From Antedon bifida (taxonomy: Eukaryota; Echinodermata; Crinoidea; Comatulida; Antedonidae), in the NCBI GenBank assembly GCA_963402885.1, contig OY727094.1, forward strand, positions 5,768,501 through 5,832,500: a stretch of 64,000 nt of DNA. Direction: 5' to 3'. Each line of letters begins with the position of its first letter. The stretch's first letter is position 1. Below the pieces are notes generated by a model that saw only the letters and a program-made list of their open reading frames with translations, searched no databases and was not told the origin of the DNA. This document shows positions 11,121 through 54,114 of this stretch, in pieces. The position numbers and the translations under genes are program-made.

Positions 11121-11989
11121 TAATTGTATACTTTATAATAATAAATTGTTGTAATTGTGTCAAGCTTCTAATTGTATTGTATGTCGTGTTGTATTGCTGG
11201 AGTGCCATAAAAACACAGCAACAGAATCAAAAGCATGGCATAAAAAAACCTCACGCTGGCCCGATCGCCGTCACCAGCTTTACTTGAGTGAAATGACAAT
11301 GCATACGGAACACAGTAACAGAATCAAAAGCACAGCAGCAACATACTCATACTATAATGCATGTTTCTTAAACTTTGTGGCCAAATGGCTTTCGAGCCAC
11401 GCGTGTGGATTGAAATAATAGTTATTATTTGAGTTCTGTGTACCATTATGGAGTATTCTTTACTTCATGTGTGTACACGTTCCATTGGTAATAAGATGGT
11501 ATGTTTGAGAATAAAGTTTGACATTCTGTAATACAGGAATTATCAATAGAACATTAAATCCGTCGAATAAGCTTCGGTTAACATATAAAACAATTAATTT
11601 GTATGTGCGTAATAAAGTACTTTCCTAATGAACTGTCATCAAACATAAAACTATGGAACGCCATCGCTGTCTTCGGTAGTTTTCTTTACCATTACGAAGA
11701 CATAAACAACGTCTAGACAATCTCATCTCAACGGGCAAGGAGCAGGTGTCATAACGGAAACAAGAGACAACAGTAATACCAACATCAACATAACATTCAG
11801 ATGGCAAAAGCCTCAATCGAAAACGATGGCTAATGCGCATGCGTATTTGTATTTTCATCTATTTGAGTTATATTTGGAAATGAAGACAGAAGCATCTCAT
11901 TGAATATTTACAACTCATCAAACTAAACCCTAAATAAACTTAATCTAACTCTCTAAATAATGAATAATAAAGGTTGTTATCAATCAATC

Positions 11990-12088
11990 ACAAGCGACAG
12001 TTTGGATGACCAATCGCGTCGTGATTGGTCAAATAACTTGCGTTACTCTTACGTCCTTGCGTTACGTTAGTGGGAAACAAGCTTTAAT
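11990..12088. mobile_element. Family B element, right part
   Basis: Contains GACCAATCGCGTCGTGATTGG (inverted CCAAT boxes) and the end CGTCCTTGCGTTACGTTAGTGGG followed by AAACAAGCTTTAA. The left tip is not visible. Confidence 0.6.
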
Positions 12089-13409: not shown

Positions 13410-14500
13410 AATGCGACGGAAGGAGAGAGAAGACATGAAAAGAGTGTGATGAGAGGGAAGAGATGAGAAACGAGAGGGTGAGAGACGAGAAGACAAAATG
13501 GGAAATATAAGAGAAAGGGCAGGGGTGAGAGAAGAGAAGAGAAGAGAAAAAAGAAGAAGATGTTAAAAGGAGAGAGACGAGAAGACAGGTCGAGAATAAA
13601 AGAGGAGAGACAACAGCGAGAGACGAGAAAACATAAGTCGATGTTAAGAGAAGAGAGAAGAGAAGAAAGTAGAAGACGTTAAGAGAAGAGAGACGAGAAG
13701 AAGTAGAGGACGTTAAGAGAAGAGAGACGAGAAAAAAGTAGAGGACGTTAAGAGAAAAGAGAAGAGAAAAAAAAGTAGAAGACGTTAAGAGCAGAAAGAA
13801 GAGAACAAAAGTAGAGGACGTTAAGAGAGGAGAGAAGAGAACAAAAGTAGATGACGTTAAAAGAATAGAACAAAAGTAGAGGACGTTAAAAGAAGAGAAC
13901 AAAAGTAGAGGACGTTAAAAGAAGAGAACAAAAGTAGAGGACGTTAAAAGAAGAGAACAAAAGTAGAGGACGTTAAGAGAGGAGAGACGAGAACAAAAGT
14001 AGAGGACGTTAAGAGAAGAGAGACGAGAACAAAGTAGAGGACGTTAAGAGACGAGAGAAGAGAAAAAAAATAGAAGACGTTAAGAGAAGAGAGAAGAGAA
14101 AAAAAGTAGATGACGTTAAGAGAAGAGAGAAGAGAACAAAAGTAGAGGACGTTAAGAGAAGAGAGACGAGAAAAAAGTAGAGGACGTTAAGAGACGAGAG
14201 AAGAGAAAAAAAATAGAAGACGTTAAGAGAAGAGAGAAGAGAAAAAAAGTAGATGACGTTAAGAGAAGAGAGAAGAGAACAAAAGTAGAGGACGTTAAGA
14301 GAAGAGAGACGAGAACAAAGTAGAGGACGTTAAGAGACGAGAGAAGAGAAAAAAAATAGAAGACGTTAAGAGAAGAGAGACGAGAACAAAAGTAGAGGAC
14401 GTTACAAGAAGAGAGAAGAGAAAAAAAGTACATGACGTTAAGAGAAGAGAGAAGAGAAAAAAAAGGAGAGGACGATAAGAGAAGAGAGACGATAAGAAAC
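13410..14500 (+). repeat. 1.1-kb purine-rich GA minisatellite, about 36-bp unit
   Basis: The plus strand is almost entirely purine. From about 13640 it is built of units like GAGGACGTTAAGAGAAGAGAG followed by ACGAGAACAAAAGTA. The only regular pyrimidines are in the ACGTT of each unit. Variant units (AAAAAAATAGAAGACG, ACAAAGTAGAGGACG) alternate in blocks, which indicates higher-order amplification. The Ser/Leu/Phe-rich frames on the minus strand are a by-product of the repeat. Confidence 0.95.
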
Positions 14501-19418: not shown

Positions 19419-19585
19419 TAAAGCTCTGTCTACACTATCAAACTAGTTTGACAAAAAAAGTGTTATGTACCCAAATATGGTAGTGATATGCTTAAATATG
19501 GTAGCGATATGACATCATCATGTCCATATATGGGCACATCACATATTTTTGTCACATAAAGTTTGATGGTGTAGAAAGAGCTTTA
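19419..19585 (+). mobile_element. Family A MITE, copy 5 (leading the SPEN-derived duplication)
   Basis: The complete element is bounded by TA-AAGCTCTGTC and GAAAGAGCTT-TA. The DNA immediately to its right (19586-19861) matches, in the same order, the SPEN intron that lies next to the element at 27564-27705. This element therefore travelled with, or carried, that piece. Confidence 0.85.
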
Positions 19586-19861
19586 CTGAGGGCATGAACA
19601 TAACACTTCCTTTTTTAAACACAAATAAAAACTTCCGAAACCAACTGAAATAAATTGTGGAAAGCATAATCTTTCAAACCTTTTAAAAAAATTGTGAAAA
19701 TTTTAAACTTTCTAAATCAAAAAATTATTTTTTGGTCAGGTCAAGGGATCACTTCCTCTATCCAAAAAATAATGTGGTTTTATACTAACTTATTCCTTAC
19801 ATTTGTTTTGCAGAGATACCCTATAATGTGGCAAGGAGTTTTAGCCTTGAAGAATGAAACA
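19586..19861 (+). pseudogene. Copied SPEN fragment: intron, 3' splice site and start of the first SPOC exon
   Basis: Read on the plus strand this matches the minus strand of 27563-27290 at about 97%: some eight to ten differences in 276 bases. It includes the TTGTTTTGCAG acceptor and the codons for R-Y-P-I-M-W-Q-G-V-L-A-L-K-N-E-T. The match stops abruptly inside the exon after GAAACA; the following sequence is unrelated, although a frame happens to stay open to 20068. The two differences inside the exon piece are both synonymous (TTA/TTG and GAG/GAA). With only 16 codons of a 69-codon exon, it cannot make a SPOC domain. Confidence 0.9.
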
Positions 19862-20196
19862 TTACAGTTTTCAACATTAAATAAAAATCTTCCTTATATA
19901 ATATTACCTCCTCGCGGCCAACAAGTCAATGTGTTTCGCTTTTGGCATGGTGTTTTTTGTTTAATAAACCGACGCTACTATTTCAATAAGATATATTTTG
20001 GATTTTGCTGTAGTGACGTTTTAAAAACTGAATCTTTAAAGCTATCAGAACTGATTTGTTACGACTAGTGTTCCGAATGAATGTTTGTACGGCGATTCTT
20101 TGGACGTCATAAATATCTGGATATTTCGCAGACTGATTGTGATTATACCATTGCAGCATAAGCCTAGCTAGCATAAGTAGTTTAGTGCTTACTTAT

Positions 20197-20410
20197 AGCT
20201 CGGTTTCCTATTAGACGGAACGCAGACACGTAAGCGCAACGTAAGTGACCAATCACAGGCGATAAATTATTCGAACTGTTGTGATTGGTCAACTCGCCTG
20301 CGTTGCGCTTTAGTGTGGTTCTCCCTTGGACGAAACGCAAGTGAGTTGACCAATCAAACAGTTTGAATAATCCATTGCGTTGTGATTGGTCGAATTATTT
20401 ACGGTGGGCT
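20197..20410. mobile_element. Family B elements, tandem pair with inverted CCAAT boxes
   Basis: AGCTCGGTTTCCTATTAGACG opens the first. It contains GTGACCAATCACAGGCG facing GTGATTGGTCAACTCG. TTAGTGTGGTTCTCCCTTGG at about 20310 begins a second one with GACCAATCAAAC facing GTGATTGGTCGAA. Ends are eroded. Confidence 0.65.
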
Positions 20411-20489
20411 TACATCCTTCGGACTTGCTTGATGAAGAAACAATATTAGAAATCACCATTAATTAATTAATTATAATGCGGTAGCAAGT

Positions 20490-20665
20490 AAAGCGTGGTT
20501 CCCACTAGCGACAAGGACGTAACGCAACGCAAGTGAATTGACCAATCACAAGCGATGGCTTATTCGCTTATGATTGCTAACTGTCTATAACTTCGCTTGT
20601 CATTGGTTAAAACGCTTGCGTTGCGTTTACGTCCTTGCGTTACGTTTTAGTGGGAACCAAGCTTA
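20490..20665. mobile_element. Family B element, complete copy
   Basis: AAGCGTGGTTCCCACTAGCG and TTTTAGTGGGAACCAAGCTT are the ends, 175 bp apart. Almost the whole element is a fold-back: GGACGTAACGCAACGCAAG faces CTTGCGTTGCGTTTACGTCC (interrupted). A central CCAAT block is also present. Confidence 0.85.
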
Positions 20666-21936
20666 ATGCCTATAAAAGATATTTTCTTCAACTTCAGGAA
20701 TTGGATGCGAAACACTACACACGTACAGGCACAACGTACGCATTGACCAATCACAAGCGTTACGTGTACGTCATTCTAGCGTTATATCTAAATTACAGAA
20801 TCTATCTTTGTCCAGTTATTGTAGCCTACCTACGTAAAGCCGGAAAAGCGTATGGAAATGAATTGTCAGACGTACTCTTCAATTGATATAACCAATTAAT
20901 TTGCAACGTAATTTAGTTTAGTCTGTTTAAATTATAATCCTATAAATGACTTCTTTTGAGTGGACTGCCATTGGCGATTTATAGAGAAGCATTTCGATCG
21001 AGAGCTGCTCTGTATTTTATTGGCTTATCTCAAGTTATGACTTTCAAAGAATAAGATGACCATATGCTCATCCTAACATTATACTATAAAGCGGTACAAT
21101 GTGTACACAGTAATACAATTTCTGTTTTAACAATATCATGTCAGCATCATTTAGGTCACGCGCACACGCGCATCCACGCACCTATTATACTGGTCATTCT
21201 GTATTAACTGTCGGTTCGTTTTATACTGTAATCGATATTCACCTTCAAAAGAAATCTGTGTTATTGACTTACACACAAATTAGTATGTCTCCTCTGAGAA
21301 TACTAAAAATAAAACTTGATTGACCGCGGATGATTGCGGTGATTGTCGTCTATATTTATATGATTATTATGCCTAGGCACAGGTCTGCTAATTATGAGCT
21401 TGTGATTATAGGATCTAGTAGTATAGAGGATACCGTGTATTTATAATTTATCAATCATGACAAGTTTACACGGCGTACAAAAAGCTGTATCAGCATTTGA
21501 AAGCACGCACGCGCGTTTGATCGCACGCCTCATATTTATGAGCGTGTTGTGGTTTCAATGATTGCGAATTGAATTCCATTATTTCATTAATTCGTCTCGA
21601 TTCATACAAATATTCACAACCAACACCACACTCACTTTTAGTACACTTATGTTTTGGGGATGGAGGTACAATAAAAGCATTAAAATGTACCGGTAATTGT
21701 TATACTCGAGGGATGTGGGTTGAAGCTACATGTGCCAAAGAAAGCACACCAAACAAAAATGAACTAGGCCTCATGAAATCATAATGTAAAACATGTTATT
21801 GGGTAGGGCTAGTCACACGTTGTTGTTGGACAAAGTCAAAACGACAAAACTGCCAAACAAATGTAGATCTGTATAATCTAGTATTGGTGCACATAAAACT
21901 GACTAAATAAATAAATAACGATAATAAAAGACTTAC

Positions 21937-22201
21937 TGATGTGTATTCCTGGTAGTAAGTTCTTGTCTTCATTTATTTTATTTACAGCGTACACCATGGC
22001 GTATTTTTCCTGTAGGCCATTTAGGCTTGGTCGCCCGCAAGTGTTATTCTCGGCACGCGTCCTGATCGGAAATACTCCGCCTAGGACCACATTCCTATCG
22101 GGTTCCACGTGTGATCCTCCTGGTTTTGTTGTTGTTTCAAAACCAATAACAACATAGCAGTTGACAAAAACTATAACACTAAACCAAAACACAAACATCA
22201 T
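21937..22201 (-). CDS. Class C GPCR, exon 1 (signal peptide and start of ligand-binding domain)
   Basis: The exon begins MMFVFWFSVIVFVNC, a hydrophobic signal peptide, with two adjacent start codons (22201 and 22198). It then gives VVLGGVFPIR, a cysteine (N-N-T-C-G), and GLQEKYAMVYAVNKIN followed by LLPGIHI. The order 'LGG-[LV]-FP-[VI]', Cys, 'AM..A...IN' and 'LLP' is the classic N-terminus of family-3 receptors (metabotropic glutamate, calcium-sensing, V2R-like). The exon has 88 codons plus one base and ends at a GTAAGT donor (phase 1) that matches the acceptor at 116. The receptor would be a plasma-membrane sensor of amino acids, calcium or similar small ligands; the ligand cannot be told from this part. 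The assignment to class C is firm and the subfamily is open. It is transcribed in the same direction as SPEN, whose stop codon lies 3.9 kb upstream of it. Confidence 0.85.
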
Positions 22202-26203: not shown

Positions 26204-29200
26204 CTAAATAGAAAATAAAACAAATACTTTGTTAGAGAAGTACACCAAAACGTAGTAACAGTATTTATGATGATTTTCTGAATAGAGTAGAACCCTTTTT
26301 TGTGGCACGAAATAACTTTTGCATGAAAAAAATGGAAAATGTATGTTTTAAACCTACGACCAACTGCTAATTAGGAAAAAAGCCCAATTACAGCGATATT
26401 TTCTTGGGTACTAAAAGTATCCCTTTATGACTTGGATGGTGGAGATTATTTAATGAGTTGAAAGATTGACTGCTATATTAAATGAGGCAGACAGGGTTCT
26501 ACTATATCCATAACCTTAGTCTGTCTGTCTATGGTGTGTCCATAAGGCCATTGACACCTGGGTTTCCACAGAAAATGGTACCATCTGGAATTTTCACTCA
26601 TTAAAACAAAGTTGTGATAACATTTTCTAATTTACACCAACCTGATTAGATCCAGGGTGAGGCACATTAATAATTCCAGCGGCTTGTTTCTGTTGAAGAT
26701 AGGTGATGAATCCGGTGTTGAGGGCGCCAGTCTGTGACATTACGTCCTGGTGATCTCTTCCGCAAGGCAAAGCAATCAGAATACAACATTCTGATTCAAC
26801 CTGTAAGATATAGTAGTAGAAAATTAGTTTTACAATTTTATTCAATTTAATGTGGCGTGGAGGATCGCAGGATCTGGAGTTTGGGACACTACTTGCCTCT
26901 CTCTACCCAGGTGTACAAATGGGTACCTGGTAGCAGTCCATACGCGTTTGATCCAACGACCAGGGTAATGATGTGAAAGCTTTGAGCATTAGGTGCTGTA
27001 TAAGATTGACTTTTATAATGTTAATTTTTTAGTCCTTATAAGTAATATTAGTTTATAAATCAGTTTTTAAGATTCTTGTCTCTAGACCGTGAGAACAGTA
27101 GATTTTATTCACATTCATTTTACCCTACCTTCATTCTTCTACCAACACCATCCAGCTGTGATTGCTCTAATCTCATCCTCTGAGCTACTCTCAACGGTGG
27201 CGATCCCTCCTCCATTGACATGGTCTGATTTAGTGCCTGACCAGCTACATCCATGTTACCGGATACATAGTGCATCTGGATAAATGCTGTCTCATTCTTT
27301 AAGGCTAAAACTCCTTGCCACATTATAGGGTATCTCTGCAAAACAAATGTAAGGAATAAGTTAGTATAAAACCACATTATTTTTTGGATAGAGGAAGCGA
27401 TCCCTTGGCCTGACCAAAAAATAATTTTTTGATTTAGAAAGTTTAAAATTTTCACAACTTTTTTAAAAGGTTTGAAAAATTATGCTTTCCACAATTTATT
27501 TCAATTGGTTTCGGAATTTTTTATTTGTGTTTAAAAAAGGAAGTGTTATGTTCATGCCCTTAATAAAGCTCTGTCTACACTATCACACTCTATGTGACAA
27601 CAAAATGTAATGTGCCCATATATGGACATGATGTTGTCATATCACTAACATATTTAGGCATATCACCACCATATTTGGGCACATCATAGTGTAGACAAAG
27701 CTTTACAGTGAGACTGGTAACTCGAACACATTTCAGTGATTTACTCCCACTGCTTGCATACAAACAGAGAAGAGTTTGAGGAGCTGGTTATCTGCTTAAA
27801 GCAATCATCGTTTCTACTGATTTTTTATACTACCATTGGGGTCAAACAGAAGGTCAACTCACCAAAATTATGTTTCCAAGATGATCTTGTTTTCTCTGCA
27901 TAGGTGATGAAGCCGGCGGTGGTGGTATCCTGTTGTGAACTGGATGTGGACCAGTTGAGTCCATACCTGGTGGTGGAATCCTCCTAGCTTGTGAATGAGG
28001 ATCGTTGGGATGTCCTTCACCGGGATGGTAACCAGCAGGCATCTTATACATGTCTGGAGTGTTCAACATAACTTGTTGTTCTGTGACTTTTGGTGTGCTC
28101 AGGTGTGGCTCTGTTATCACAGGCGGCATATGGTGTATCCTTGGTGAATATCCAATTCCACCAATTCTCGTTAGTGGCATGCCTGGCACGTTGATATGAC
28201 CAGCTTTGTTGGTCGGATCATCATCCTTCTTTTCAGTCATTGAGACAGGTGGTGTGCCTCTTTTATGTGTTAACTGTGAATTCGGAGAAATTATTTTTGG
28301 TGAAAGTCCTGGAGAGGACACCGGTGGAATTGGCATTCGAGGTGATGGTATGTTTCCGACAGGAGATGAAAGTGGCAGATGTTCAACACCTGTGTATAAT
28401 CGGTATGGGAAAATTCCAGGTGGTACCATTTGCTGTGGAAAACCAGGTGTCAATGGCCTTATGGACACAGCATCTGTCGGTGGAATATAGTATAGAGGTC
28501 CTCCAACTACATGAACGTTAGGATGTGGTGCTCTACCAGGCGGAGCCACTTGGTGAGGTTCTTTCCTTTCCTGAGATACATAGTCATTATTTGCTTGGAT
28601 CACTCCATGGTGAGCTTCATTCTTTGCTCTTACATCCGATGCTGATGTTGACAATGCATAGCCAGGTACATACTGCATCTGTGATGTGACAACTTTAGTA
28701 TTTTCTCGACCCTTAGTCGGATTTGCTGCTGAAGTTGTCAACATTAACCTCTCACGTAGAACACTAGCTGCAGCATAAGTTGTGGCTGTCACTGATGTTG
28801 GAACAGAAAATGATTGCAATTGAGCAGTCAAATTTGCCTGATGGGCAAGAGCTGAAACACTAACTTGAGGTCCAAGTCCTGTCTGGTATATTCGGGGTTG
28901 TTCGGTAACAAAACCCACTTTCTCTGCTGGTTCAACCACACCTGGTGCTGGACTTAAATGTGTTGGTTTGATAGTCTGCTGAGGGTGCTGGGGAACATGG
29001 ACCTGTAGTGGTATTCCTAGTACTGGTGGTCTTGTTAAAGCAATTTGTGGTTGATGTTGCATGGTTTCTGCTTTTGTTGGCAATGAATCTTGCGTTTGTT
29101 GTTCCTGTTGCTGCTGCTGTTGTTGTTGTTGCTGCTGCTGCTGCAGGTGATGTAGTTGTTGCTGCATCAACTGCTGCTGTTGCTGCTGTTGTATCAGCTT

Positions 29201-51186: not shown

Positions 51187-51628
51187 GTAAAGTCCCATGA
51201 CTTGGATTTACCAATTTGTGAAAATGGTAGTACAGTAAAATACCATATTATAGTAAAGTCCCATGACTTGGATTTACCAATTTGTGAAAATGGTAGTACA
51301 GTAAAATACCATATTGTAGGATATTCCCATGACTTGGATTTACCAATTTGTGAAAATGGTAGTACAGTAAAATACCATATTATAGTAAAGTCCCATAACT
51401 TGGCTTTGCCAATTTGTGAAAATGGTAGTACAGTAAAATACCATATTATAGTAAAGTCCCATGACTTGGATTCACCAATTTGTGAAAATGATAGTACAGT
51501 AAAATACCATATTATAGTAAAGTCCCATGACTTGGATTCACCAATTTGTGAAAATGGTAGTACAGTAAAATACCATATTATAGTAAAGTCCCATAACTTG
51601 GCTTTGCCAATTTGTGAAAATTCTAGTA
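51187..51628. repeat. 66-bp minisatellite, about 6.7 copies, open on both strands
   Basis: Units begin GTAAAGTCCCATGACTTGG at 51187, 51253, 51319 (variant), 51385, 51451, 51517 and 51583. The 66-base period is 22 codons, so frames stay open on both strands: plus D-L-P-I-C-E-N-G-S-T-V-K-Y-H-I-I-V-K-S-H and minus W-D-F-T-I-I-W-Y-F-T-V-L-P-F-S-Q-I-G. No known domain, no conserved flanks and no splice signals point to a protein; I read it as a minisatellite. Confidence 0.9.
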
Positions 51629-54114
51629 CAATACTTAAAAATACTGGTACCTTACCATTTTCATTTTTTTCTCCTCTTGATCTGCGAATTTCAGTAAAAA
51701 TTTTCATAAATTATGAAATTTAATTTTTTTTGCTCAAAATATAATTACGAAATTTAATACTTTTTTTTAACAATTATTATAATAGTTCTTAAAAATGAAC
51801 AGAAATACTGTACAAATATATTTTTATATAATTTGTTTAATTTCCCAGAATTTTTTGGGGAAAAACTGACATTATTATTAACACAATAAAGTTTCAATAA
51901 CTTTAACCTTTATTCATTATCAAAATTATACTTAATTATAAAATAAAAACATTGATTTTTAATATCATTACTAAATTTACTTTTTCTTTCTCATTATTTG
52001 AAGCAAGTTTTATCCAATGTTCTAAAAATTTACAAAATTCATATTTGACTATTTTTTATTTTTTGGTAATATCAATATGAATCCATAACTTAGAAACTCA
52101 ATCTATTAGATAAGACACAAAAAAAAAACCTCAAAAGAAACTATCTATTATATGCATTCAATCTTACATTCCTCATTAACTAGTACCGTACCTGGCGATC
52201 TTATTATAGCAGAGTGTATAATTAATTACTATAACGAACTGCTACTCAGAAACGTATCAAACCGCATTCCACAATTGACAAACACACTCCTGGGATAGGT
52301 TAAGATTATTAATTAGTAACGAGTAGCTGTCGAAAAACAGCAAGTAACTATGGTGAAAACAGCGCAACTGGCCCGTGACAAGCTGGAGTGGGTTGTAATT
52401 ACAACAATCTAGGCCTAATAATCTAGCATGGTGTTCGCTGTAATGATGGGTGACACCCAGGTATATGACCTCATGCTACCGCTACAAAGCCCTTTTCTCA
52501 TACATAGAGCTATATTTGCTACTGTATGTTGCGGAAGAATGAGAAACAATGGTAATGACATGTATTTATCTTGATATCAAGTTTGCGGTACACCATGTAT
52601 GTAGATCTGAAAAGAATTGTTGAGTTTCTTAACGTTTCGATAAAAATATTCGATCGTCCTCAGGAGTGACATACTATGTACTAAAAGTAGTAAAAAACCA
52701 GTAACAATACCGCAAATTGAGACTATTACAGTACAGTAGGACTTACTGTAGTTTATCTATTTACCAGTGTTCAATTTAGTACTATAGTAGTCTAGCAAAA
52801 ACAACCTTTCTTCTTCTGTTTGGCGGTTTGAAATTGAAAATCCTAATAGTAAAAAACATTCTATTATTTCTATTTAGTTTAGCTAAAAGAATTACGTTTT
52901 GAAAGTATAATACTATTTAAATTTTTCTTTTAGCATACAAACAACTGGTTCAGGCAATGGAGAAAATGGAGTATAATTATATTGATTTAAATGCCAACAG
53001 TACCATTAACTATGAAATATTTCAACGTAGTAAAAACGTTTGCACAGATTTTTGTTTGTTTTCCCTAAATCAACAACGTAGATCATTTTAAATCCTGGAT
53101 TATATCCAGGTAAGCCGATAACAACCTCAACAAAAGAAGGATAAAAACAATCTTTCAATCAAAAGAAATCAAACAATAAATATTTACGATTTCAATGTTT
53201 ATTGATGATTCAAAGGTCGAAAGTTTGGCGGCGCTTGAAAACGATCATTGTGCATGGTCGTTTGTTTCATTCTTAAACCGGACAACCACGCCCGTTTGTT
53301 TGATTCTAAACCTATAAGGAAGTTGCATCATACTATAGTGTGAGGTAATTTGATCACGATAGAAATAGTTCATGATACCGTAGTGATATCATTTAAGAGT
53401 CAATATGGAAATTCAGAGTACACAAAAATACTTTTATATTATCCACCTGAAAACAATTTTTAATATGCCATATTGATATGTCACATAATAGTTTTTCACT
53501 TTGATTTGACCAAAAATGTGAAACTTCAGGTAAAAAATTTATTTCAAAATGTTGATTAGCAATATTGCTAATCAAACTGATTTTTGAGTCGAGAAACATA
53601 GTTTTGTATTATATTTTAGAAATGTTAGAAATGTGTAGCAATAAGGTTGTTTTTTTGTATTGCTTTTTGCTATACTATTACTATACTGGCGAAATTATTC
53701 CCTGAACTTTTAAATCAATGGCTTAAAATAAATAATGTGTAAGTAGTGAAAAAATAGATATATTTTTTTATTATTAATTATTCAATGATTAATTTTTCAT
53801 ATAATTTCAACTGGTGACATTAACAACAAACCAATTTAATTAAAATCGTATTTACAATCATAGAATGAACATTGCAACAGGGATATTATCAGAATATAGC
53901 CTAACAACAATGTTATGCAATTCCTTCCGTATTTACCAAGACTGAATAAAAATAAATTCTGGATTGATAGTTAAACATAATAAAATATTTGTTTAATGAT
54001 AAAACACAAAATTACAATTGTAACATATCGTACCATACTGTGCACATACGGAACACAATATATCCAGTTTATACTAGCTCAGTATACCGGTAATGATAAA
54101 CTACCAAGTTTATT

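Follow-up and report, generated by a model that had tools for sequence, protein, structure and literature searches.

Rearrangements between transposable elements (TEs) of about 80% similarity, termed TEMRs, are reported to be prevalent in humans (PMC9675761), and in mammalian cells a homologous synthesis that starts at one end has been described to be closed by microhomology joining, with template switching (PMC5104497). Gene capture in plants has been reviewed (PMC13317346). The locus described here, block A, is most likely an instance of a TE-anchored templated insertion, a known kind of TE-mediated rearrangement. As in the Alu-type TEMRs reported for humans, its junction lies at two diverged repeats of the same family (PMC9675761). 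In contrast to those rearrangements, the repeat is a foldback DNA-transposon MITE, and the outcome appears to be a templated insertion with one homologous border and not a simple deletion, duplication or inversion. As in the system of PMC5104497, one end would have invaded by homology and copied onward before the second end was joined without homology. That system is a laboratory reporter with an induced break, whereas here we infer the break of an old natural event. Block A also resembles Pack-TYPE transposons (PMC8903248) and the Turmoil-1 transduplication of C. elegans (PMC2572040), as these sources describe them, in that a gene fragment adjoins an element with terminal inverted repeats (TIRs). 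Unlike in both, the fragment lies outside both TIRs, occupies a single extra locus beside its source and has no recognisable second end. Word searches of the literature found no report of an animal MITE-anchored template switch carrying an exon, although absence is not thereby proven.

The window, meaning the whole stretch of 64,000 nucleotides of Antedon bifida DNA that we analysed (C7:5768501-5832500 of the 315.6-Mb genome), contains block A (19419-19861, plus strand) and block B (27705-27288, minus strand), which were aligned base by base. Positions 19465-19861 on the plus strand matched 27684-27288 on the minus strand with 94.2% identity over 397 bases (E = 1.6e-175), a real duplication far above chance. 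Block A begins with a family A MITE, continues with the closing 228 bp of a SPEN intron, TTTTGCAG acceptor included, and stops 48 bases into the exon that opens the SPOC domain. The two blocks contain the following features:

19419..19585, plus strand: MITE A, family A, 167 bp, an imperfect foldback with TA at both ends (aligned with 59 copies)
19586..19813, plus strand: duplicated 3' end of the SPEN intron, 228 bp including the acceptor AG (8/228 mismatches against 27563-27336, minus strand)
19814..19861, plus strand: duplicated start of the SPOC exon, 48 bases, ending abruptly (2 synonymous mismatches; border without a TIR)
27564..27705, minus strand: MITE B in the SPEN intron, without 25 bp of the left arm (family A alignment)
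27288..27563, minus strand: SPEN source, intron 3' end plus first 48 SPOC exon bases (the sole other locus of the fragment found genome-wide)
27129..27335, minus strand: SPEN exon in which the SPOC domain begins (splice sites placed by eye; Pfam SPOC, E = 5.7e-11)

The order given by the original prediction, namely MITE, intron, TTTTGCAG acceptor and exon start, is present in the alignment, which also bears out an abrupt stop of the match inside the exon and a block border at the outer end of the MITE, the left border being its outer TA. Its numbers required adjustment. The last matching base is 19861/27288 and not 27290, and 48 exon bases instead of 45-46 were found, since the acceptor AG ends at 19813 and the first exon base of the copy is 19814. 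The identity of about 97% claimed for the block holds for the SPEN part, where 19586-19861 and 27563-27288 are identical at 266 of 276 positions (96.4%; 10 mismatches, gapless), but fails for the MITE part (126/142, with a 25-bp gap). A comparison of the outer flanks of A and B revealed no mutual similarity just outside the borders. A separate comparison of flanks across 47 family copies gave 19 similar flank pairs, namely the A-B pair, one case of two overlapping window pieces, and 17 that are presumably neighbouring family copies. An assembly artefact such as a read foldback was considered and set aside as improbable, near-identity being expected in that case and 3.6% divergence with dissimilar flanks being observed. 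A retrocopy origin of the SPEN fragment was likewise rejected because intron sequence is present in the copy.

The source exon is genuine, with the ORF at 27120-27479 (minus strand) matching Pfam SPOC (E = 5.7e-11). The 48 copied exon bases translate to RYPIMWQGVLALKNET at both loci, their 2 differences being synonymous. The 3,097-aa SPEN ORF matched no Pfam family in the Pfam search, and the gene name is therefore based on the SPOC exon, the earlier reading and the appearance of the ORFs. When the 315.6-Mb genome was searched with the 276-bp fragment, loci A and B alone were recovered (2/2 first-look candidates scored), with two strong matches and two weak ones (E = 0.48) within the same two loci. 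The search for further copies that the original prediction had proposed thus yielded none besides A and B.

The gene around block A was read from the following features on the minus strand:

21937..22201, minus strand: probably the first coding exon of a class C GPCR that is mGluR-like (mGluR3, E = 1e-6; end placed by eye at a GTAAGT donor)
C7:5762995-5763378 and C7:5761032-5761517, minus strand: ANF_receptor stretches sharing the strand of the GPCR ORF, 5.1-7.5 kb beyond the left end of the window

The ORF at 21878-22201 (minus strand) matched mGluR3 among solved structures (E = 1e-6) and no Pfam family at E 0.001, and block A lies downstream of the probable first coding exon that it contains. 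One of the ANF_receptor stretches has a stop inside the match, and the ANF-receptor search listed no match within the window. No intervening exon was found by the ANF-receptor search, a motif search of the window for further mGluR exons or a PDB search with one ORF, and the profile region in between was not recovered. The neighbouring gene nevertheless looks like a class C (mGluR-like) GPCR, and block A is probably within one of its introns because the mGluR3-like ORF and the ANF_receptor stretches share the minus strand. The GPCR intron of the original prediction therefore gains support from both matches, although it stays unproven, with no Pfam family and no exon in between. The copied acceptor, on the plus strand, is antisense to the GPCR gene, and RNA of the GPCR intron would hold a 276-nt stretch that is 96% antisense to the SPEN SPOC acceptor and exon start. 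If the two genes were co-expressed, this RNA could mask the SPEN splice site or feed small RNAs against SPEN, as a trans-acting regulator of a neighbouring gene, a role that we regard as extremely improbable. The GPCR intron may also house a further foldback family: 20230-20413 is an imperfect palindrome, and sequences related to it occur at 11985-12087 and inside 20343-20762.

The MITE part and the SPEN part of block A seem to have differing histories. MITE A, which matches its own reverse complement at 73.7%, differs from MITE B by 16 mismatches in 142 aligned columns (15/140 or 15/142 in other alignments), giving an identity of 88.7-89.4% depending on the alignment, and 25 bases of MITE A are missing from MITE B. 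The contrast with the SPEN part was significant (10/276 versus 16/142; Fisher p = 0.0044), also when the three junction bases were left out (SPEN 8/273; p = 0.0013). About 4 MITE mismatches are expected at the SPEN rate; at the upper bound of that rate the excess stands out less, with a probability of 0.007 for at least 16. The MITE part is thus diverged 3-4 times more than the SPEN part. This difference bears on an alternative transposition with re-replication, as known for reversed Ac ends in maize, where composite insertions arise. Re-replication is reported to copy the sequence flanking the transposon and to end where it aborts (PMC4270019), a point in favour of this route. However, because the element itself is re-replicated, MITE A should match MITE B as well as the SPEN part matches its source, which was not observed, and we consider this route very unlikely.

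We then placed both MITEs among their relatives. Two genome searches for family A gave 3373 and 4901 first-look candidates, of which 40 each were scored. The first comparison set held 31 copies (20 from the top of the genome match list and 11 from the window), and the second held 59 (the first set plus 28/30 loci from the second genome search, with B and one duplicate omitted). The mean identity among the 31 other copies was 89.2%, compared to 88.7% for A and B. Among the 59 sampled copies, the closest kin of MITE A was L019 (95.2%) and that of MITE B was L034 (95.4% over 130 columns). As many as 37/59 copies were nearer to A than B is, and 29/59 were nearer to B than A is, counts that hold for this biased sample of copies only. 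Since the likeness of A and B is ordinary for the family and both have closer kin elsewhere, MITE A was probably not copied from MITE B but probably already sat in the GPCR intron when the SPEN fragment was added. A joint copying of MITE and SPEN piece is hard to reconcile with the divergence contrast and with kin at 95% elsewhere versus 89% between A and B.

Individual letters point the same way. The number of columns in which A and B share a state against the family majority was 0/142, 1/142 or 1/140, according to the alignment; the single case is column 19493, where T stands at 24 to C at 33 in the 59-copy alignment. A script had trimmed the copies for that alignment, and one subgroup of 14 rows in it may be partly misaligned. 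L034 and L048 carry the same non-majority letters as MITE B at 19482 and 19548, and L019 shares the letter of MITE A at 19464. At the 15 sites at which A and B differ, a hypothetical copy bearing only majority letters would be A-like at 9 and B-like at 6. The corresponding scores were 10 to 5 for L019 and 5 to 9 for L034, L048 and L060, and mixed patterns occur. The evidence for separate descent from these letters is modest, because such letters recur across copies in mixed patterns. The short-arm junction of MITE B was seen at 24 further places, 25 with B itself (at most 3 mismatches; reversed control 0). Nine of these other loci were read and are not specially B-like (58-89% identity to B and 58-91% to A), so that the junction does not decide the question of descent. 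The mixed backgrounds of the short-arm form in the ten loci read suggest either an old form or recurrent loss.

A clade of MITEs A and B was not rejected by an AU test (p = 0.38; log-likelihood 6.63 lower), which puts no clock on the branches; the underlying tree, built from 165 columns, was poorly resolved. Divergence and nearest kin favour the pre-existence of MITE A. The AU result leaves room for a joint segmental duplication of MITE and SPEN piece, after which the MITE at A or B was overwritten by gene conversion, for which the many first-look candidates provide possible donors, or diverged faster. Such a history needs either a second event or a 3-4-fold difference in rate at one exact border, together with a coincidence of that border with the MITE end. 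A clade of A and B with long end branches would still require the MITE to have evolved 3-4 times faster than the adjoining intron, although rates may differ. We consider a joint duplication unlikely. The small segmental duplication that the original prediction had offered as its second option is nearer to the data than a Pack-type event; its border, however, was most likely set by MITE homology and not by chance.

The first of its two options, a Pack-type transduplication in which the left end of the MITE and a cryptic end in the exon moved a unit of 443 bp, was examined at the right border. The left border at the outer TA of the MITE agrees with this route, as does a TA at 19863, two bases past the right border; the latter is weak evidence, because TA starts at about 9% of positions (frequency 0.091 per position). 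The right border itself has no MITE terminus: its best TIR match was 9/17, a score reached by 61% of random places (P = 0.61), whereas the genuine right ends of MITEs A and B scored 16 and 17 in the same scoring. Moreover, the SPEN fragment is situated outside a complete MITE A and not between two TIRs, the genome-wide search found no extra copy of it, and MITE A is no closer to B than to other family copies. With its right end at random level, we regard the cryptic-end route as highly improbable. A MITE and SPEN piece mobile together as one unit was also rejected, given the divergence contrast, the single extra locus and the lack of a second TIR.

The evidence on both borders is best accommodated by a one-sided repair copying that was anchored at a MITE, involved two independent MITEs and was completed in one event by joining without homology; we assign this reading a probability of roughly 0.7. 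MITE A and MITE B adjoin copy and source on the same side and in matching orientation. The copy starts at the right end of A where the source starts at the right end of B, which suggests that MITE homology was involved. The position at which the template would have changed can be narrowed to one zone:

19564..19590, plus strand: putative zone of the template switch, covering the last 22 bp of MITE A and the first bases after it

On the left side of 19564 there are nine sites at which A differs from B and B from the family majority. If these letters of B predate the event, the switch would have happened within the terminal 22 bp of the MITE or directly behind it. From 19589 block A follows SPEN. 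The exact switch point is uncertain because mismatches stand at 19586 and 19588, right behind the MITE. Bases 19586-19588 follow the TA of the MITE and precede 43 identical positions, and they perhaps represent native flank or filler.

We infer the order of events and the anchoring at the MITE end as follows. Two independent family A MITEs would have stood inverted and 8 kb apart, A in the mGluR-like intron and B upstream of the SPOC exon. MITE A may have suffered a break at its right end, or a replication fork may have stalled there, exposing an end that could then have annealed to the matching right end (TIR) of MITE B. Repair synthesis would have extended 276 bp into the SPEN intron and exon, along a path that presumably stopped within the SPOC exon, and the new end, once freed, would have been ligated to the opposite side of the break with no homology involved. 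Overall, this would amount to a homologous invasion, or a template switch, on one side and end joining on the other. The same geometry was considered for an inversion through the inverted MITEs, followed by an exchange with an uninverted chromosome that restored the order and left the SPEN piece beside MITE A. The two MITE-SPEN arms do form a suitable inverted pair with a spacer of 7,426 bp, but this route takes two events, the SPEN end would be cut off, and no datum demands it, so that we judge it quite unlikely. In the one-sided repair copying that we favour, the SPEN copy is most likely a passive scar of an ordinary kind, left by faulty DNA repair, as opposed to a transposon-borne gene.

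Together, these results suggest that a MITE can seem to have captured a splice acceptor and an exon when it may do no more than mark a repair junction. Comparing the divergence on either side of the border helps to separate the two, and other reports of MITEs capturing genes would merit the same comparison. The locus provides a natural example of an apparent MITE-anchored templated insertion that places an exon start in the intron of another gene.

Other repeats were also seen in the window. The region 51187-51633 is a tandem array of 66-bp units that are 93-95% alike, with a frame open on both strands, and 13532-14499 is a long imperfect tandem array whose ORFs on the minus strand overlap and are rich in Leu, Ser and Phe. 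Positions 2180-2386 and 17302-17095 form a 209-bp inverted pair with 91% identity and without a family A match at either place.
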